Shown: piece after piece, positions 10,747 to 59,784 of the stretch
Layout: every line of letters begins with the position of its first letter
Position numbering within the stretch: position 1 is the first letter of the stretch
NCBI GenBank assembly: GCA_017427265.1
Contig: JAFRTG010000007.1
Span: 1-64,000 of the forward strand
Reading direction: 5' to 3'
Length of the DNA stretch: 64,000 nt
Source of the DNA: Oscillospiraceae bacterium
Lineage (GTDB): Bacteria; Bacillota; Clostridia; Oscillospirales; Ruminococcaceae
The notes under the pieces: generated by a model
Database searches by the model: none
Told to the model about the DNA's origin: nothing
What the model saw: only the letters and a program-made list of their open reading frames with translations
Made by a program: the position numbers and the translations under genes

Positions 10747-12681
10747 ATGAAAATCACATTTGCAAACGGCAGCTTTGAAGGTGCTGCCCCTGTCACAGTC
10801 TACGACGCTGCGAAGGAAGCAGGCGTCATCGAACGCGAGCACATTGCCGCGCTCGTCAACGGCACACCGGCCGACCTGACCGCTGAGCTCACCACTGACG
10901 CTGATGTGCAGCTCCTGACCTTTGAGGACAAGGAAGGACGCCATGTGTTCAATCACACCGCAGCCCATATCCTTGCACAGGCTGTCAAGCGCCTGTTCCC
11001 GGACGTCAAGCTGACGATCGGTCCCGCCATTGACCGCGGCTTCTACTACGATTTTGATACCGAAAAGCCCTTCAATGCCGATACGCTGACGGCACTCGAA
11101 GGCGAAATGAAAAAGATCGTCAAGGAAAATCTGCGCATTGAGCGCTTCACCCTGCCGAAGGATGAGGCCATCAAGCTGATGCAGGAGCGCGGTGAGACCT
11201 ATAAGGTTGAGCTGATCGAGGATCTGCCGGAGGGCGAAACCATCAGCTTCTACAAGCAGGGCGAATACACCGACCTCTGTACCGGCCCGCATCTGTTCGC
11301 AACCGGTCTTGTCAAGGCGTTCAAGCTGACTTCCTGCACCGGTGCTTACTGGCGCGGCGATCAGAACAACAGACAGCTCACCCGTATCTACGGCGTAGCC
11401 TTCCCGAAAAAGGAACAGCTCAAAGAGCACCTCGATATGCTTGAGGAGGCCAAAAAGCGCGATCACAACAAGATCGGCCGTGAGCTTGAATACTTCACCA
11501 CTGTTGATTACATCGGTCAGGGTCTCCCGATTCTGCTGCCGAAGGGCGCAAGAGTCATTCAGCTCCTCCAGCGCTGGGTTGAGGACTATGAACAGTCCAA
11601 GGGCTGCCAGCTTACCAAGACACCGCTCTTTGCAAAGCGGGATCTCTACAAGATTTCCGGTCACTGGGATCACTATCTTGACGGCATGTTTGTCATGGGC
11701 GACCCCCATGATGAGGAAAAGGAATGCTTTGCACTCCGCCCGATGACCTGCCCGTTCCAGTATCAGGTCTTCCTGAACAAGCAGCGCTCCTACAGAGAGC
11801 TGCCGATGCGTCTGACCGAAACCTCTACCCTGTTCCGCAACGAGGACAGCGGCGAGATGCACGGCCTCATCCGTGTCCGTCAGTTCACAATCTCAGAGGG
11901 CCACTTCATTCTTCGCCCGGATCAGCTCGAAGAAGAATTCAAGTTCTGCCTTGAGATGGCAAAGTATATGCTTAATACCGTCGGTCTGCTGGAGGACTGC
12001 ACCTTCCGCTTCTCCCAGTGGGATCCGGCCAACCCGAAGAACAAGTACGAGGGCACCGCAGAGCAGTGGGAGCTCGCACAGGCTACGATGGAAAAAATCC
12101 TCAACGACCTCGGCGTTGAATACGAGATCGGCATTGACGAGGCTGCCTTCTACGGCCCGAAGCTGGATGTCCAGTATAAGAACGTGTTCGGCAAGGAAGA
12201 TACCATCGTCACCATCCAGATCGACATGCTGCTCGCACAGCGCTTCGGCATGTACTATATCGACAAGGACGGTCAGAAGAAGCTGCCGTATATCATTCAC
12301 AGAACATCCCTCGGATGCTTCGAGCGCACGCTCGCCTATATGCTTGAGAAGTTTGCAGGCGTTCTGCCGCTCTGGCTTGCACCGGAGCAGGTTCGTCTGC
12401 TGCCGATCGGCGAAGAGCATGTTGCCTATGCACAGGCCTTTGCCGACAAGCTGACGCAGGCCGGCATGCGCGTGACGGTCGATGCCGAGGACAGAAACAT
12501 CGGCACCAAGATCAAGAACGCCCGCTTCGACCGCATTCCGTATATGCTCATCATCGGCGACAACGAGGTCAAGGACAACGGCGTGACTGTCCGCTCCCGC
12601 AAGGAAGGCGAGCTCGGCTGCCTGAAGCTCGACGATGTATTCAGCAAGCTCATCACAGAGGTTGCAACCAAAGCAAAATAA
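10747..12681 (+). CDS. thrS: Threonyl-tRNA synthetase
   Basis: A 644-residue class II aminoacyl-tRNA synthetase that charges tRNA(Thr) in the cytoplasm. Domains in order are an N-terminal TGS domain (1-65), an SAD editing domain with HTAAH near residue 75 and CTGPH near 182, a catalytic core with motif 2 (FRNEDSGEMHGLIRVRQF) and motif 3 (GCFERTLAYM), and a C-terminal anticodon-binding domain. The cysteine in MTCPFQ is the expected zinc ligand. The ATG at 10747 has a GGAGGAATGC ribosome site; the longer open frame upstream is leader RNA. Expression is controlled by the T-box at 10471-10710. Confidence 0.98.
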   Translation: MKITFANGSFEGAAPVTVYDAAKEAGVIEREHIAALVNGTPADLTAELTTDADVQLLTFEDKEGRHVFNHTAAHILAQAVKRLFPDVKLTIGPAIDRGFYYDFDTEKPFNADTLTALEGEMKKIVKENLRIERFTLPKDEAIKLMQERGETYKVELIEDLPEGETISFYKQGEYTDLCTGPHLFATGLVKAFKLTSCTGAYWRGDQNNRQLTRIYGVAFPKKEQLKEHLDMLEEAKKRDHNKIGRELEYFTTVDYIGQGLPILLPKGARVIQLLQRWVEDYEQSKGCQLTKTPLFAKRDLYKISGHWDHYLDGMFVMGDPHDEEKECFALRPMTCPFQYQVFLNKQRSYRELPMRLTETSTLFRNEDSGEMHGLIRVRQFTISEGHFILRPDQLEEEFKFCLEMAKYMLNTVGLLEDCTFRFSQWDPANPKNKYEGTAEQWELAQATMEKILNDLGVEYEIGIDEAAFYGPKLDVQYKNVFGKEDTIVTIQIDMLLAQRFGMYYIDKDGQKKLPYIIHRTSLGCFERTLAYMLEKFAGVLPLWLAPEQVRLLPIGEEHVAYAQAFADKLTQAGMRVTVDAEDRNIGTKIKNARFDRIPYMLIIGDNEVKDNGVTVRSRKEGELGCLKLDDVFSKLITEVATKAK

Positions 12682-12691
12682 TCAGAAGCAT

Positions 12692-12740
12692 AATCATTCC
12701 GGATCCGGTTCACGATACCGCATCCGGAATGATTTCTTTG
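12692..12740 (+). terminator. Intrinsic terminator of thrS
   Basis: AATCATTCCGGAT..CGG pairs with CCG..ATCCGGAATGATT, followed by TCTTTG. The long stem sits 10 bp after the stop. Confidence 0.8.
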
Positions 12741-12778
12741 TGCATTAAAATTTATGCCGCAGATACATGCATTTGCGG

Positions 12779-12807
12779 TTGACTTTTCGGCATACATGTG
12801 CTATAAT
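12779..12807 (+). promoter_or_regulatory. Promoter of mgtE leader
   Basis: TTGACT (12779-12784) and TATAAT (12802-12807) with 17 bp spacing. Transcription should start about 12814, just before the closing helix of the leader. Confidence 0.85.
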
Positions 12808-12814
12808 ATTTTTG

Positions 12815-13016
12815 TTGCAAATTCAGGTTAACTGTGAGGTGAGGAACGTGGCAAACGGTGACAGTTGCGGCTCAAACGGGCGATTACCGCAGATACGGCG
12901 GTTTCAGCGCGCAGAAAGAACGCATCGGCAGCCGGGCTGCCGCGTTTGCTGTGCCTGAATTATGACCGTATTGCATGACGGTGCCCTGTTTGTACCCGTA
13001 CAGACAGGATTTTTTA
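12815..13016 (+). promoter_or_regulatory. Structured attenuator leader of mgtE, class unassigned
   Basis: A riboswitch-like 5' leader. A perfect 8-bp closing helix (AATTCAGG at 12820-12827 with CCTGAATT at 12954-12961) encloses about 126 nt. Three hairpins can be drawn inside: AACTGT with ACAGTT, GCGG with CCGC, and a 7-bp CGGCAGC/GCTGCCG stem. An intrinsic terminator follows: CCTGTTTGTAC pairs with GTACAGACAGG (12984-13010), then T6. Position upstream of mgtE suggests sensing of Mg2+ or another ion. I could not find the M-box core GTTAGGTGAGGCTCC or its 3' partner GCTAAAGCTC, so I do not call it an M-box. Confidence 0.6.
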
Positions 13017-13117
13017 TGCCCATTTGACCGTTGCTGAGTATCGTGAGATCGCAGCAGATTTCATGAAAAGGAAACGGGGTGACTCCAATGGGGACAGAAA
13101 TGCTGCAGGAGGCAGCG

Positions 13118-14527
13118 ATGAACGCGGAAACCGCGGTTGCGCTGAAGCCTGACTATAAAAACGAAATCATCGGTATCATCCGGAGCGCAGCCTCTCCAAA
13201 GGCGATCCGTACACAGCTGGATGATTATCACGGAAACGACATTGCAGAGGTTGTCGGACAGCTGAACCAGCAGGAACGAACAAAGCTTTACCGTGTCTGC
13301 GGTATCCAGATGCTCGCTGAAATATTTGAGCATCTCGAAGAAGAGGACGCTGGCAAATATCTGCGGGAAATGGATTTACAAAAAGCGGCATCCGTCATTT
13401 CCGAGCTGGAGACCGATACCGCAGCAAATGTCCTGCGGGAAATCGAAAAAGAGCGGCGCGCACTGCTGATTGACATGCTGCCGCAGGATATCCGCAAGGA
13501 AATCCGCCTGATTGCGTCCTTTGACGAGGACGAGATCGGCAGCAAAATGACGACCAACTGCATCATTATCCGTGAAAATCTGACCGTCAAGCAGGCCATG
13601 AACGAGCTTGTGCGGCAGGCAGAGGAAAATGACAATATCTCCACGCTGTTTGTCGTGGACGAAACCGGCACCTATTACGGCGCCATTGACTTAAAGGAGC
13701 TGATTACGGCACGCAACAGCGTCCCGCTGGAACGGCTGATTTCAACGTCCTTCCCGTATGTGTATGCACACGAGACGATTGACGACTGTATCGAAAAGCT
13801 GAAGGATTATTCCGAGGATTCGATTCCCGTACTCGACAACAGCAATCAGATGCTCGGCGTTATCACCGCGGCCAGCATCATTGAGGTCGTGGATGACGAA
13901 ATGGGCGAAGACTATGCAAAATTCGCAGGTCTGACCGCAGAAGAGGATCTGCAGGAGCCGCTCGGCCGCAGCATGAAAAAGCGTCTGCCGTGGCTGCTGA
14001 TTCTGCTCTGTCTGGGTATGCTGGTCTCCGGCGTTGTCGGTATTTTTGAAAAGGTCATCTCGCAGCTGACGCTGATTATGGCATTCCAGTCGCTGATTCT
14101 TGACATGGCCGGTAATGTCGGCACGCAGTCACTGGCTGTCACGATCCGTGTTCTGATGGACGAAACGCTGACATTCGGCCAGAAAATGAAGCTCGTCGGC
14201 AAAGAAATGCGCGTCGGTCTGTGCAACGGTATGCTGCTCGGAATGATGTCCTTTGTCATGGTCGGCGGATATATCATGCTGTTCAAGCATAAAACTGCAG
14301 TGTTCGCGTTTGCCGTATCCGGCTGCATCGGTACCTCGCTGATGCTCGCCATGCTGATTTCCAGCGCCGTCGGCACACTGATTCCGCTGTTTTTCAAGAA
14401 AATCAAGGTTGACCCGGCCGTCGCATCCGGTCCGCTGATTACAACGGTCAACGACCTTGTTGCTGTCGTGACCTATTACGGCATGAGCTGGATCCTGCTG
14501 CTCAATGTCCTGCATCTGCATGAATAA
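13118..14527 (+). CDS. mgtE: MgtE-type magnesium channel
   Basis: A 469-residue Mg2+ channel. It has the superhelical N domain (1-115), a CBS pair (about 120-240; MTTNCIIIRENLTVKQAM opens it), a plug helix, and five C-terminal membrane segments. The pore signatures GNVGTQSLAV and TVNDLVAVVTYYG are present, the latter with the Mg-binding aspartate. Start choice: the frame is open from a GTG at 13079 and an ATG at 13088, but the ATG at 13118 has a perfect AGGAGG 5 bp upstream and gives the usual length. It is preceded by the structured leader at 12815-13016 and followed by a strong terminator. Confidence 0.93.
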   Translation: MNAETAVALKPDYKNEIIGIIRSAASPKAIRTQLDDYHGNDIAEVVGQLNQQERTKLYRVCGIQMLAEIFEHLEEEDAGKYLREMDLQKAASVISELETDTAANVLREIEKERRALLIDMLPQDIRKEIRLIASFDEDEIGSKMTTNCIIIRENLTVKQAMNELVRQAEENDNISTLFVVDETGTYYGAIDLKELITARNSVPLERLISTSFPYVYAHETIDDCIEKLKDYSEDSIPVLDNSNQMLGVITAASIIEVVDDEMGEDYAKFAGLTAEEDLQEPLGRSMKKRLPWLLILLCLGMLVSGVVGIFEKVISQLTLIMAFQSLILDMAGNVGTQSLAVTIRVLMDETLTFGQKMKLVGKEMRVGLCNGMLLGMMSFVMVGGYIMLFKHKTAVFAFAVSGCIGTSLMLAMLISSAVGTLIPLFFKKIKVDPAVASGPLITTVNDLVAVVTYYGMSWILLLNVLHLHE

Positions 14528-27731: not shown

Positions 27732-28005
27732 AAAAAAATCCGCCAGCTGATGATGGCGGACATTGAGCAGATGAACGGATCCGGTTACGCCTGATATCCG
27801 GCGTAAAATCACGAAAACCCGGTCAGCACTCCACAATGCAGAACGCAATGTGACAGTCACGCACCTGTTCGGTACGCGCCCAGCAACCCCGATGCCGTAT
27901 CGGCGCAACTTCGGCGGATCTGCCTTTCTCACCGGAATCTGGTTTTCACCGCGGGTCGGCACCCTCAATCCGGCGGTACTCATCATCACCGCTCCTCTGT
28001 CCGTG
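27732..28005 (-). promoter_or_regulatory. Lysine riboswitch (L-box) with terminator
   Basis: Lysine-sensing leader of the asd operon. On the minus strand it shows the conserved blocks ACAGAGGAGCGG, GCCGAAG, GCTGGG, GACTGTCAC and GTGGAGTGCTG in the right order over about 190 nt (28005-27815). An expression platform ends in an intrinsic terminator: TCCGCCA pairs with TGGCGGA (27760-27740) and is followed by T7 (27738-27732). Lysine binding would stop transcription before asd. Confidence 0.93.
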
Positions 28006-28010
28006 CTCTT

Positions 28011-56604: not shown

Positions 56605-57081
56605 CTATTGGTTTTCTGCGCTGCGGATTCTGCGCGTACAGACGACTGACCAGATCACGATGAGCGCGCCGACAGCGGATACGCCGCCGCCAAACAGCTT
56701 GAACACAAACAGCACATCCTGATCCGGATTCAGCTTGCGCTCCGACACGGCGAGATCAGACAGCGGATCGTAATAGACCTTGACTTCCTGCCCGGTCACC
56801 GGAATGTTTTCCTGCTCGCTGAATACCGCGGTTCTGCTGTTTCCCGCCTCATCCTTGAAGGAAACAACCGGACTGAAATAGTTACGGTGATGTTCATCAT
56901 CATAACGTGTCCGATAGGTCGTGACAACACCAACCGCAACACCGCGGCAGCGTTCTGCCAGCTTTTTTGCGTCTCTTTGTTCAGATATACCGAACAGTAC
57001 AAACAAAAGCCCGACGATAATAAATGAGATTCCGAAACCGCGCAGACTTTTTGCCTTGCCGATTGTATCAATTTTCACCAT
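56605..57081 (-). CDS. DUF3592-type membrane protein
   Basis: A 158-residue protein with two membrane helices (about 15-33 and 127-147) enclosing a beta-rich domain. The enclosed part, with FSPVVSFKDEAGNSRTAVFS and GQEVKVYYDPLSDLAV, is characteristic of DUF3592, whose function is unknown. I prefer the ATG at 57081 over the GTG at 57090; the ribosome site is weak for both. It lies 30 bp after the XRE-cupin-synthetase stop and may be cotranscribed, ending at the terminator 56561-56602. Confidence 0.75.
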   Translation of the reverse strand: MVKIDTIGKAKSLRGFGISFIIVGLLFVLFGISEQRDAKKLAERCRGVAVGVVTTYRTRYDDEHHRNYFSPVVSFKDEAGNSRTAVFSEQENIPVTGQEVKVYYDPLSDLAVSERKLNPDQDVLFVFKLFGGGVSAVGALIVIWSVVCTRRIRSAENQ

Positions 57082-57111
57082 AACAAGCACCGATTTTACG
57101 GAAAAAGGTTG

Positions 57112-59448
57112 TTATTTCGCATACTTCGCCTTATCCATCTCACGGATTGCAGCACGGCGGATCTTGCCGCTGCCGACGGTCTTAGGCAGCTCCGGTACAA
57201 ATTCCACGACACGCGGATACTTGTACGGTGCGGTGCCGCGCTTCACATACTCCTGAATCTCCTTGACCAGCTCCGGCGTTCCGACAGTGCCGCTTGTCAG
57301 GACAATCGTCGCCTTGACGACCTGACCGCGGATCGGATCCGGCACACCGGTAACGGCACACTCAAGCACATAGGGCAGCTCCATCAGCACACTCTCGATC
57401 TCGAACGGTCCGATGCGGTAGCCGGAGGACTTGATGACATCGTCCACACGGCCGACATACCAGAAATAGCCGTCCTCATCGACCCACGCGGTATCACCGG
57501 TATGATAATAGCCGTCGCGCCATGTTTCGGCGGTTGTTTCTTCATCGCCGTAGTAGCACAGCGCCAGACCCGGAACACCCTCAGCCTTGAGCTTGATGCA
57601 GATTTCTCCGGTCTCACCGACTGCGGCAGGCGTGCCGTCCGGCAGAAGCACCTGCACATCATACTGCGGATTCGGCTTGCCCATCGAGCCGGGCTTCGGT
57701 TCCATGCCAACGACATTGGCGATGGAAAGCGTGGTTTCGGTCTGGCCGAAGCCTTCCATCAGCTTGATGCCGGTCGCCCGCTGGAACTGATAGAACACCT
57801 CCGGATTCAGCGCCTCACCTGCGATACAGGCATACTTCAGCGAGGAAAGATCGTATCTTGCAAGATCTTCCTTGATGAAGAAGCGGTACATGGTCGGCGG
57901 TGCACAGAAGCTCGTGACATGATACTTCTTGAACATCGGCAGGATATCGTCCGCATGGAAGCGGTCGAAGTCATACACAAAGACGGCTGCCTCGCACATC
58001 CACTGGCCGTAGAGCTTGCCCCACAGCGCCTTGCCCCAGCCAGTATCGGAGATGGTGAAGTGCAGGCCGTTCGGATCGGCATTCTGCCAGTAGCGTGCCG
58101 TGACATAGTGGCCGAGCGGATACTGATAGCTGTGCAGCACGAGCTTCGGGTTGCCGGAGGTACCGGAGCTGAAGAAAATCAGCATCGGATCAGTGCCGCA
58201 GGGTGTTTCGGCGGTGCGCTCAAAGTGCGTGCTGTAGGCCGGAAGCTCCTCGTTGAAATCGTGCCAGCCCTCGCGCTTGCCGTTGACCATCACCTTGGTT
58301 TTGAGCGACGGAGATGCTGCACATGCAAGATCGACCTCATTTGCGACGTCGCCGTCTGCGGTACAGACAATCGCAGAGACCTCAGCGGAATTGAAGCGGT
58401 ATTCAAAATCGTGCTTTTTCAGCATATTGGATGCCGGGATGACCAGCGCACCGATGCGGTGCAGGGCAATGATCGAGAACCAGAACTGATAATGCCGCTT
58501 CAGAACCAGCATCACGCGGTCGCCCTTTTTGATGCCGAGAGACTTGAAATAATTGGCCGTCTGGCAGGAATAGCGCTTGATATCCTTGAAGGTGAATCTG
58601 CGCTCGGCATGATTGACATCGACATAGATCATTGCCGTTTTATCCGGACATTTTTCAGCCATCGCATCGACGATATCATATGCAAAATTGAACTGATCCT
58701 GATTTTCAAAATGAACAGCACTCAGGATGCCGTCCTCATTTGTTTCGCAGGTCACAAACTTCTCCGCAACCGGATGCAGCAGGCCGGCCTTATCAACATT
58801 GGTCAGATGGTGCTCCGCCACATGCTCATGATACTCCGAAAGGCCGCTTGTACCGTGCGGCGCCATGACAAATGCATAGATCTCGCAGTCCTCGCCGCCC
58901 AGCGCAATCTCATCGTGCGGCATGGAGCTGTCATAGTAGATGCAGTCGCCCTCGTGCAGAATCTCGGTATGTGAGCCGACAATCATGCGGACAGTGCCCT
59001 TCAGAACAATATCCATCTCCTGACCGGCATGGCTTGCGAGGTGCAGCGGCTTGGAAAGCGCCTCCTCCGAATACGGAATGACAACATGGAAAGGCTCGAC
59101 GGTCTTGTTCTTGAATTTTGCAGCGAGGCGGTTATACACAAAGCCCTCTCTGCGGACGATCGGCACGCCCTCGCCCTTTCTGGTGACCGTATAGCCGCTG
59201 AGCTCCGGGCTGGTGCCTTCCATCAGATCCGAAATCTCAACACGGAAAATATTTGCACATTTATAAATGAATGTAAAACTAAAATCCTTCTCTCCCGCTT
59301 CAAACAGCTTATAATCCTCAACAGAATAGCCCGTATTGGCTGCCATTTCCTCGACGGTAAAACCGAGATCTTCGCGCAGACGCATAATTCGCTCCGCGAC
59401 CTCCCTGATTCTGGTTTCGGCGTTCATTTGCTTGTTCTGCTCGTCCAT
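57112..59448 (-). CDS. XRE-cupin-acyl-CoA synthetase fusion
   Basis: A 778-residue three-part protein. Residues 10-75 form an XRE-type helix-turn-helix (MRLREDLGFTVEEMAANTGY), residues 120-190 a cupin (GQEMDIVLKGTVRMIVG; YYDSSMPHDEIALGG), and residues 225-778 an AMP-forming acyl-CoA synthetase. The A3 loop FFSSGTSGNPKLVLHSY, TISDTGWGKALWGKLYGQW, the A7-A8 region TGDTAWVDEDGYFWYVGR and the A10 lysine in GSGKIRR are intact. The sequence resembles medium-chain/branched-chain (ACSM/Macs-like) enzymes more than acetyl-CoA synthetase. It is preceded by a T-box leader, so expression seems tied to a tRNA charging level. ATG at 59448 with AAAGGAG. Confidence 0.9.
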   Translation of the reverse strand: MDEQNKQMNAETRIREVAERIMRLREDLGFTVEEMAANTGYSVEDYKLFEAGEKDFSFTFIYKCANIFRVEISDLMEGTSPELSGYTVTRKGEGVPIVRREGFVYNRLAAKFKNKTVEPFHVVIPYSEEALSKPLHLASHAGQEMDIVLKGTVRMIVGSHTEILHEGDCIYYDSSMPHDEIALGGEDCEIYAFVMAPHGTSGLSEYHEHVAEHHLTNVDKAGLLHPVAEKFVTCETNEDGILSAVHFENQDQFNFAYDIVDAMAEKCPDKTAMIYVDVNHAERRFTFKDIKRYSCQTANYFKSLGIKKGDRVMLVLKRHYQFWFSIIALHRIGALVIPASNMLKKHDFEYRFNSAEVSAIVCTADGDVANEVDLACAASPSLKTKVMVNGKREGWHDFNEELPAYSTHFERTAETPCGTDPMLIFFSSGTSGNPKLVLHSYQYPLGHYVTARYWQNADPNGLHFTISDTGWGKALWGKLYGQWMCEAAVFVYDFDRFHADDILPMFKKYHVTSFCAPPTMYRFFIKEDLARYDLSSLKYACIAGEALNPEVFYQFQRATGIKLMEGFGQTETTLSIANVVGMEPKPGSMGKPNPQYDVQVLLPDGTPAAVGETGEICIKLKAEGVPGLALCYYGDEETTAETWRDGYYHTGDTAWVDEDGYFWYVGRVDDVIKSSGYRIGPFEIESVLMELPYVLECAVTGVPDPIRGQVVKATIVLTSGTVGTPELVKEIQEYVKRGTAPYKYPRVVEFVPELPKTVGSGKIRRAAIREMDKAKYAK

Positions 59449-59478
59449 CACGATCTCTCCTTTACAAAATAATAAATA

Positions 59479-59750
59479 AAAAAGCCCGTCTCAAAGAATG
59501 AACTTTGAGACGAGCATCTTACCAAGATTACCCGCGGTACCACTCAAATTGTGCCGCTATTGCGTAACACCACTTTCAGGCTCCGACAAGCCCTATTCCT
59601 TGACGCAGACTCACGGGAACGCTTACTCAGCCTTTTCAGCATTCCGGCTCAGAAGGGATACACAGCACTGCATGACACCGGCTCACACCGCCCGCCGGCT
59701 CTCTGAAGACATTGGCAATCCCATGCTTGGCTTCCTCATTGCCTTTACAG
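59479..59750 (-). promoter_or_regulatory. T-box leader upstream of acyl-CoA synthetase
   Basis: On the minus strand the T-box sequence GAGTGGTACCGCGGGT lies at 59545-59530. The distal stem I loop CCGGCGGGCGGTGTGAGCCGG closely resembles that of B. subtilis glyQS. A terminator with a 12-13-bp stem (GCTCGTCTCAAAG with TTTGAGACGGGC, 59515-59485) and T6 completes the attenuator. The specifier lies in GTGTATCCCTTCTGAGC; by length alignment to glyQS it would be ATC (Ile), but TCC or TAT cannot be excluded because the loop E motif is not canonical. Confidence 0.88.
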
Positions 59751-59755
59751 ACTGT

Positions 59756-59784
59756 ATTGTAACACAAAAACGGTTATTTGTCAA
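59756..59784 (-). promoter_or_regulatory. Promoter of T-box-controlled synthetase
   Basis: Minus-strand TTGACA (59784-59779) and TACAAT (59761-59756) with 17 bp spacing. The -35 box lies inside the last codons of nth. Confidence 0.82.

Follow-up and report, generated by a model that had tools for sequence, protein, structure and literature searches.

Why should a tRNA-sensing leader stand in front of a gene for an acyl-CoA synthetase (ACS) and not for an aminoacyl-tRNA synthetase? This question is raised by a locus on contig JAFRTG010000007.1 of an Oscillospiraceae bacterium (assembly GCA_017427265.1), of which the first 64,000 nucleotides, here called the window, were analysed, and in which a T-box leader on the minus strand is followed by a gene for an XRE-cupin-ACS fusion. 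We conclude, with a probability that we put at roughly 0.84, that this T-box responds to tRNA-Ile and switches on the salvage of 2-methylbutyrate to isoleucine (Ile) in an organism that has no ilvC/ilvD route. The sequence itself shows the T-box and its Ile reading, the family of the gene, the absence of ilvC and ilvD, VorBAC and ilvE in the genome, the gene clusters of relatives and a paralogue with a valine (Val) specifier. Coordinates of the features are collected in Table 1, and numbers with the prefixes G, C and L are our handles for genomes, contigs and loci.

The leader matches the T-box covariance model RF00230 over its full length and above the gathering score. A promoter-like site is predicted upstream and a T-run terminator downstream, all on the minus strand, and the core UGGUACC lies in an antiterminator that competes with the terminator ahead of the gene. 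We take the leader to be a T-box riboswitch that acts on transcription. As tRNA-Ile ends in ACCA, the UGGU of the core would pair with the 3′ end of this tRNA. The ACS frame opens about 30 bases past the terminator stem, and an ATG at 59448, right after the GTG that opens the frame, is better placed behind GGAG and is the likelier start. The next same-strand frame downstream (56605-57090) has no match in Pfam or NCBIfam at E 0.001.

The register of the specifier was calibrated on other T-boxes of this genome, those of valS and trp, in which GAA or AAA directly precedes the codon and one base separates it from the basal helix (GAA-GUC-G-CGUUC for valS, GAA-UGG-C-CCGC and AAA-UGG-C-CCGC for trp). 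In this register the window leader reads UGU-AUC-C-CUUCU, and AUC is also found in front of a 92%-identical copy of the gene on contig C25; therefore both leaders read Ile. These are two of the six T-boxes in the genome, the other four of which precede valS, a TrpB-like gene, trpE (517.3 bits against a cut-off of 517.7) and aspS.

On extending the search to homologues drawn from 60 relatives and from named genomes (best 80 of 594 confirmed), the T-box core was found upstream in 93 of 115 rows, which correspond to 85 distinct leaders, and UGGU is present in all 85. A codon-blind pattern read AUC in 79 of the 80 readable leaders. The remaining one (L122) gave UUC from its first hairpin, and its second hairpin has AUC, making 80 out of 80. 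It may be noted that the second specifier reader prefers AUC, GUA or GUC where several matches exist. The five unread leaders comprise three that end at a contig end, one with a deletion and one that is off-pattern (L041, AUC by eye). The bases flanking AUC on both sides are variable among the homologue leaders. We also aligned 34 of 38 prepared diverse leaders over six helices (alignment A1). Here 92.9% of the pair cells are paired, double changes occur in 16 of 28 pairs, and none of 500 shuffles was as high on any of five measures. Four of the five pairs of the specifier-side helix are invariant and the fifth is formed in 6 of 34 leaders, hence this helix offers no covariation evidence. The T-box is taken to be beyond chance because the core is found upstream in so many homologue rows and because the 34 leaders covary.

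An earlier note on this DNA had proposed much of this. The T-box sequence, stem I and terminator that it described are confirmed by the RF00230 score over cut-off, the terminator scan and the covarying helices. Its statement that the leader leads to an XRE-cupin-ACS gene only also holds, with one AMP-forming ACS fusion gene behind it. The ‘possible ATC (Ile) specifier’ was read rightly, as the calibrated register and the homologue leaders agree on AUC, and the covariation that was to be looked for across homologous leaders is present in the 34 diverse ones. As a separate observation, the ACS of L081 is 62% identical to that of the window, yet its leader is nearly like those of close Ruminococcus loci, and its nearest relatives in the enzyme tree have no T-box; this leader may have been exchanged.

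As regards the enzyme, the closest solved chain is 3ETC, the Macs of Methanosarcina acetivorans (673 bits, the runner-up having 368). Passages of a paper on Macs (PMC10455477) give 2-methylbutyrate as its preferred substrate and Gly in place of the Acs Trp, with Trp259 taking over that place. They also state that Macs forms acyl-AMP with propionate but completes the thioester step with 2-methylbutyrate. Both structural features are present in the window enzyme as Gly569 (Acs Trp position) and Trp477 (equivalent to the alternate Trp259). Gly255, Lys256, Trp259 and Gly351 of Macs are common to the two proteins, which differ in that the aligned Macs chain is without the XRE-cupin part. We know of no T-box on Macs. 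The window ACS is probably of the Macs type, with 2-methylbutyrate as its predicted substrate. That the gene instead codes for an acetyl-CoA synthetase, to which an Ile T-box was recruited by chance, is scarcely credible: acetate-CoA ligases do occur in the NCBIfam match list, ranking below the MbcS family considered further on, but AUC is found in all 80 readable leaders across divergent enzymes, the Acs Trp is replaced by Gly, and the Val paralogue has a matched specifier. A strict use of acetate, which the earlier note had named as speaking against its proposal, is likewise unlikely given that Gly and the nearest structure being Macs. A regulator-type pair of helix-turn-helix (HTH) and cupin domains makes up the N-terminal third of the enzyme, a fusion that is kept across the aligned homologues.

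We then come to the route that the product would enter. The window's genome gave no real match to ilvC (best 22.9 bits vs a cut-off of 226) and no match to ilvD; both families were detected in 14 of 14 control genomes, and the listed completeness of the assembly is 99.3%. The same genome has VorA, VorB (548 bits vs a cut-off of 399) and VorC together on contig C36, ilvE on C15, and IorA-IorB-PaaK-like genes on C33 and C30 (by similarity to L134, L136 and L142). By gene content it is thus equipped for making Ile from 2-methylbutyrate, and two classical steps are missing. Within the window's genus ilvC is over cut-off in 8 of 30 genomes. In an order-wide set of 297 genomes, 94 have the fused ACS (full-length or contig-cut matches, split genes left out), and ilvC (E 1e-30 or better) was found in 26 of these vs 149 of the 203 without it (Fisher p 1e-13, kinship ignored); among 25 genomes with a tandem ACS pair it was found in 2. 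If the enzyme were to activate propionate, propionyl-CoA could be carboxylated to 2-oxobutyrate and feed the ordinary Ile route, which the Ile specifier would fit too, as would the acyl-AMP that Macs forms with propionate (passages of PMC10455477). But ilvC and ilvD, on which this route depends, are not in the window's genome, ilvC is absent in 68 of the 94 gene-bearing genomes, and the thioester step of Macs is completed with 2-methylbutyrate according to the same passages, so that we regard it as very unlikely.

In relatives the genes for the predicted steps stand together. One strand of G050 (L136) has, in this order, a T-box with AUC, the XRE-cupin-ACS gene, a CbiA-type ATPase, VorB (NF005507, 536 bits vs a cut-off of 399), a thiamine pyrophosphate (TPP) subunit, a POR gamma subunit and IlvE (TIGR01123, over cut-off). 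The ACS search of the order matched 120 of 297 genomes at E 1e-200. We looked at 42 loci, namely L135, L136 and the 40 that best matched the second ACS gene of L135, and similarity hits showed VorB following on the ACS strand in 34 and IlvE in 25 of them, frequencies that belong to loci picked by similarity to the Val-type enzyme and not to the order. No own T-box was seen within 420 bases at any of 38 VorB places or 25 IlvE places. The ferredoxin-dependent 2-oxoacid oxidoreductase that the earlier note suggested seeking under the same T-box class is therefore found as VorBAC behind the T-box-ACS in relatives, often with IlvE, the oxidoreductase itself having no T-box of its own. These clusters resemble the known reductive carboxylation by VorBAC/IorAB in the rumen in having VorB, the TPP and gamma subunits and IlvE, and differ from it in their predicted control by tRNA-sensing leaders; titles, abstract starts and passages of the literature searched yielded no tRNA-sensing control of this type of reductive carboxylation. 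At L135 the VorB of G058 (12103-13154) is broken across two frames and its neighbours are whole.

On this basis we propose the following course. At Ile shortage, the AUC specifier and UGGU would both pair with uncharged tRNA-Ile, the antiterminator would form, and the synthetase would be made. This Macs-type enzyme would turn 2-methylbutyrate, freed by other rumen microbes, into 2-methylbutyryl-CoA, which VorBAC with ferredoxin would reductively carboxylate to 3-methyl-2-oxopentanoate, and IlvE would transaminate the latter to Ile. The idea of the earlier note that a tRNA-sensing switch ties amino-acid shortage to acid scavenging finds support in the Ile specifier, the VorBAC/IlvE clusters and the missing ilvC/ilvD. 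VOR reactions are reversible in principle, and the flow could then be from Ile to the acid, with the T-box serving Ile catabolism or energy; but a T-box turns genes on at amino-acid shortage, which is the wrong sense for breakdown, and the membership of an AMP-forming family, together with a Lys763 that is the same in all 25 rows, favours CoA-ester formation, making this direction highly improbable.

The proposed salvage of 2-methylbutyrate to Ile probably has a counterpart for Val. Many of the 42 chosen loci have two tandem ACS genes, mostly with a T-box each. On dividing the 67 ACS genes at these loci by specifier, 27 have AUC, 26 GUA and 1 GUC, and 13 are unread or without a T-box (11 with no T-box motif within 260 bases, some of them at contig ends, and 2 unread, one being GUA by eye). 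A looser reader gave 27 AUC, 26 GUA, 1 GUC, 1 UCC and 12 unread for the same genes. In a tree of 93 enzymes, built by a quick method with SH-aLRT support only, the Val-labelled enzymes fall in one branch with a support of 100; its 32 rows are 28 Val (including the second gene of L162, unread in the codon count), 4 unlabelled and no Ile, while the remaining 61 rows are 50 Ile and 11 unlabelled. The only position fixed differently between the two sides is Macs 255, which is Gly in 61 of 61 rows on the Ile side and Ala in 32 of 32 on the Val side; a threshold of 75% adds eight columns, most of them outside the pocket motifs. Macs 255 lies between Trp254 and Lys256, four residues ahead of Trp259. 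Alignment to Macs Lys256 and Trp259 places the corresponding Gly473 of the window beside the acyl-pocket Lys and Trp, and we infer that the extra methyl on going from Gly to Ala would fit an acid one carbon shorter, that is, isobutyrate. In the rumen 2-methylbutyrate is the precursor of Ile and isobutyrate that of Val, as stated in passages of PMC7356843.

Other acid ligases were also found under T-boxes, at loci reached via ACS or T-box hits, which are not a sample. PaaK-like genes have a T-box in 4 of 8 places, and in 4 of 4 the reading is GAA UUC for phenylalanine (Phe) (L142 2560(+), L133 7506(-), L113 and L098); the L142 and L133 genes have PaaK as best match with 523 and 532 bits, under the cut-off of 646. 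LeuA-like genes are under a T-box in 6 of 9 places (L136 10368(+), L142 4775(+), L162, L165, L167 and L181), with CUC or CUG for leucine (Leu), these codons being read by eye, and several are followed by a fusion of a TIM-barrel and an AMP-binding part (one scanned, L135). A FadD-like ligase is under a T-box once, with CUC (by eye). This suggests a general rule by which ligases for acid salvage respond to the amino acid that they make. We consider it quite likely that gut and rumen Clostridia have a tRNA-sensing regulon of at least three CoA-ligase families, in which the specifier names the product (Ile or Val for XRE-cupin-ACS; Leu for FadD-like, mostly behind LeuA-like genes; Phe for PaaK-like) and thereby would label the substrate (2-methylbutyrate, isobutyrate, isovalerate or phenylacetate), one ACS duplication having changed AUC to GUA and Gly to Ala together. 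Separately, L134 (G046:C5) has a same-strand series of TrpB-like, symporter-like, PaaK-like, IorA (TIGR03336, over cut-off), IorB and ACT protein genes with an Rfam T-box upstream at C5:68847-69095, and this series could make tryptophan from indole acids.

Several observations weigh against the salvage of 2-methylbutyrate under an Ile T-box. Two patterns found no tRNA-Ile in the window's genome. VorBAC lies there on a different contig from the T-box-ACS, and the pathway genes are dispersed. Of the genomes with the fused ACS, the 26 already mentioned keep ilvC, and 54 of the 203 without it also lack ilvC. No T-box motif was seen in 22 of the 115 homologue rows, five of which have less than 700 upstream bases and four of which sit in one tree branch. 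The choice of the 42 loci by a Val-type enzyme counts here too. Also, the substrate, the direction of flux and the response to tRNA are what we infer from sequence. GAA is directly 5′ of the codon in 0 of the 80 readable ACS leaders, although the usual T-box specifier loop has an AGUA...GAA loop-E/S-turn with GAA in that place, and in this genome the leaders of valS and the TrpB-like gene do have it. We take the GAA/S-turn as common and not obligatory, and the T-box filing was kept because the whole-model score is over cut-off; in one leader group GGUC and GACC could pair right above the codon in place of GAA. Finally, the best NCBIfam match of the window ACS is MbcS (NF047394 equivalog) with 448.7 bits, far below the cut-off of 850, and we therefore place the enzyme with MbcS by its presumed function but not in that family; the 525-position MbcS model spans the synthetase part only.

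Passages of PMC10026030 state that MbcS of Staphylococcus aureus selects 2-methylbutyrate and isobutyrate and that it serves branched fatty acid synthesis there, a role different from that proposed here. The window enzyme could accordingly be supplying branched acyl-CoA primers for membrane fatty acids, with Ile shortage signalling primer scarcity. In 4 named loci a MaoC/FAS1-dehydratase-like gene (two scanned), often in opposite orientation, lies no more than 5 kb from the ACS; it could hint at such fatty-acid use and so is a further point of the kind listed above. But the gene is clustered with VorBAC and IlvE in relatives, and a Val-specifier paralogue with the same neighbours suits amino acids better, so a role in membranes appears unlikely. 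Besides the MaoC-like gene (4 loci), recurrent neighbours in the named close homologues are few, namely a gene with ACT and metallo-beta-lactamase parts (9 loci) and a gene of unknown kind (9). The former is often directly behind the T-box-ACS (L133 3226-4662(-), scanned; L103 6325-7770).

Compared with the RF00230 T-boxes of amino-acid biosynthesis operons in Firmicutes, the ACS leaders share a Stem I of full length, its AGAGA and GGUG motifs, the UGGU antiterminator and the terminator, and a predicted control of a step that makes the amino acid of the specifier. They are unlike them in lacking GAA before the codon and in their target, an acyl-CoA synthetase of an acid-salvage route. Titles, abstract starts and passages of the literature searched gave no T-box on an acyl-CoA synthetase, PaaK or VOR, and a word search of the main texts of two T-box surveys (PMC2494555, PMC3766115) gave no acyl-CoA, ferredoxin or phenylacetate term. 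Within the literature searched, the genes that activate branched acids and their control were apparently unnamed before, and the T-box yields candidate genes for them. That cellulolytic rumen bacteria need branched-chain volatile fatty acids has long been known. The specifier predicts the substrate of each ligase and a single residue, Gly473, is singled out. If true, acid salvage joins tRNA synthetases, classical biosynthesis and transport among the targets of T-boxes, which would help the annotation of many ‘acyl-CoA synthetases’ in gut genomes.

Table 1. Predicted features of the T-box-ACS locus, in window positions.
Feature	Position	Strand	Basis
Promoter-like site TTGACA-17-TACAAT	59756..59784	(-)	Consensus scan only
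T-box leader	59503..59748	(-)	RF00230 covariance match, 99.8 bits (gathering score 93), model 1-219; covariation
Specifier AUC (Ile), then C and basal helix strand CUUCU	59657..59659	(-)	Calibrated register
T-box core UGGUACC	59536..59542	(-)	RF00230 match
Intrinsic terminator, 13 pairs and T run; overlaps 3′ part of antiterminator	59484..59515	(-)	Consensus scan only
XRE-cupin-acyl-CoA synthetase, 779 aa from GTG	57112..59451	(-)	Frame and domain scans
HTH (XRE-like), residues 20-80, weak	59212..59394	(-)	22.4 bits (HTH_3, just below cut-off 23) and 21.1 bits (under cut-off 30.2)
Cupin domain, residues 137-193	58873..59043	(-)	Cupin_2 over cut-off
AMP-binding domain, residues 264-620	57592..58662	(-)	Over cut-off
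Codon of Gly473 (= Macs Gly255)	58033..58035	(-)	Alignment of 93 rows
AMP-binding C-terminal domain, residues 684-758	57178..57402	(-)	AMP-binding_C over cut-off

Two minor observations may be added. A split paralogue, an XRE-cupin gene with a separate ACS gene (about 44-52% identical), is found in L138 (G000:C15 3483-5782), L137, L147 and L149; no T-box was seen by pattern at these four loci, and in L137, L147 and L149 the split paralogue lies behind CbiA-VorBAC. Elsewhere in the window a lysine riboswitch at 27816-28007(-) (95.7 bits) precedes an aspartate-semialdehyde dehydrogenase gene, which is an ordinary arrangement.

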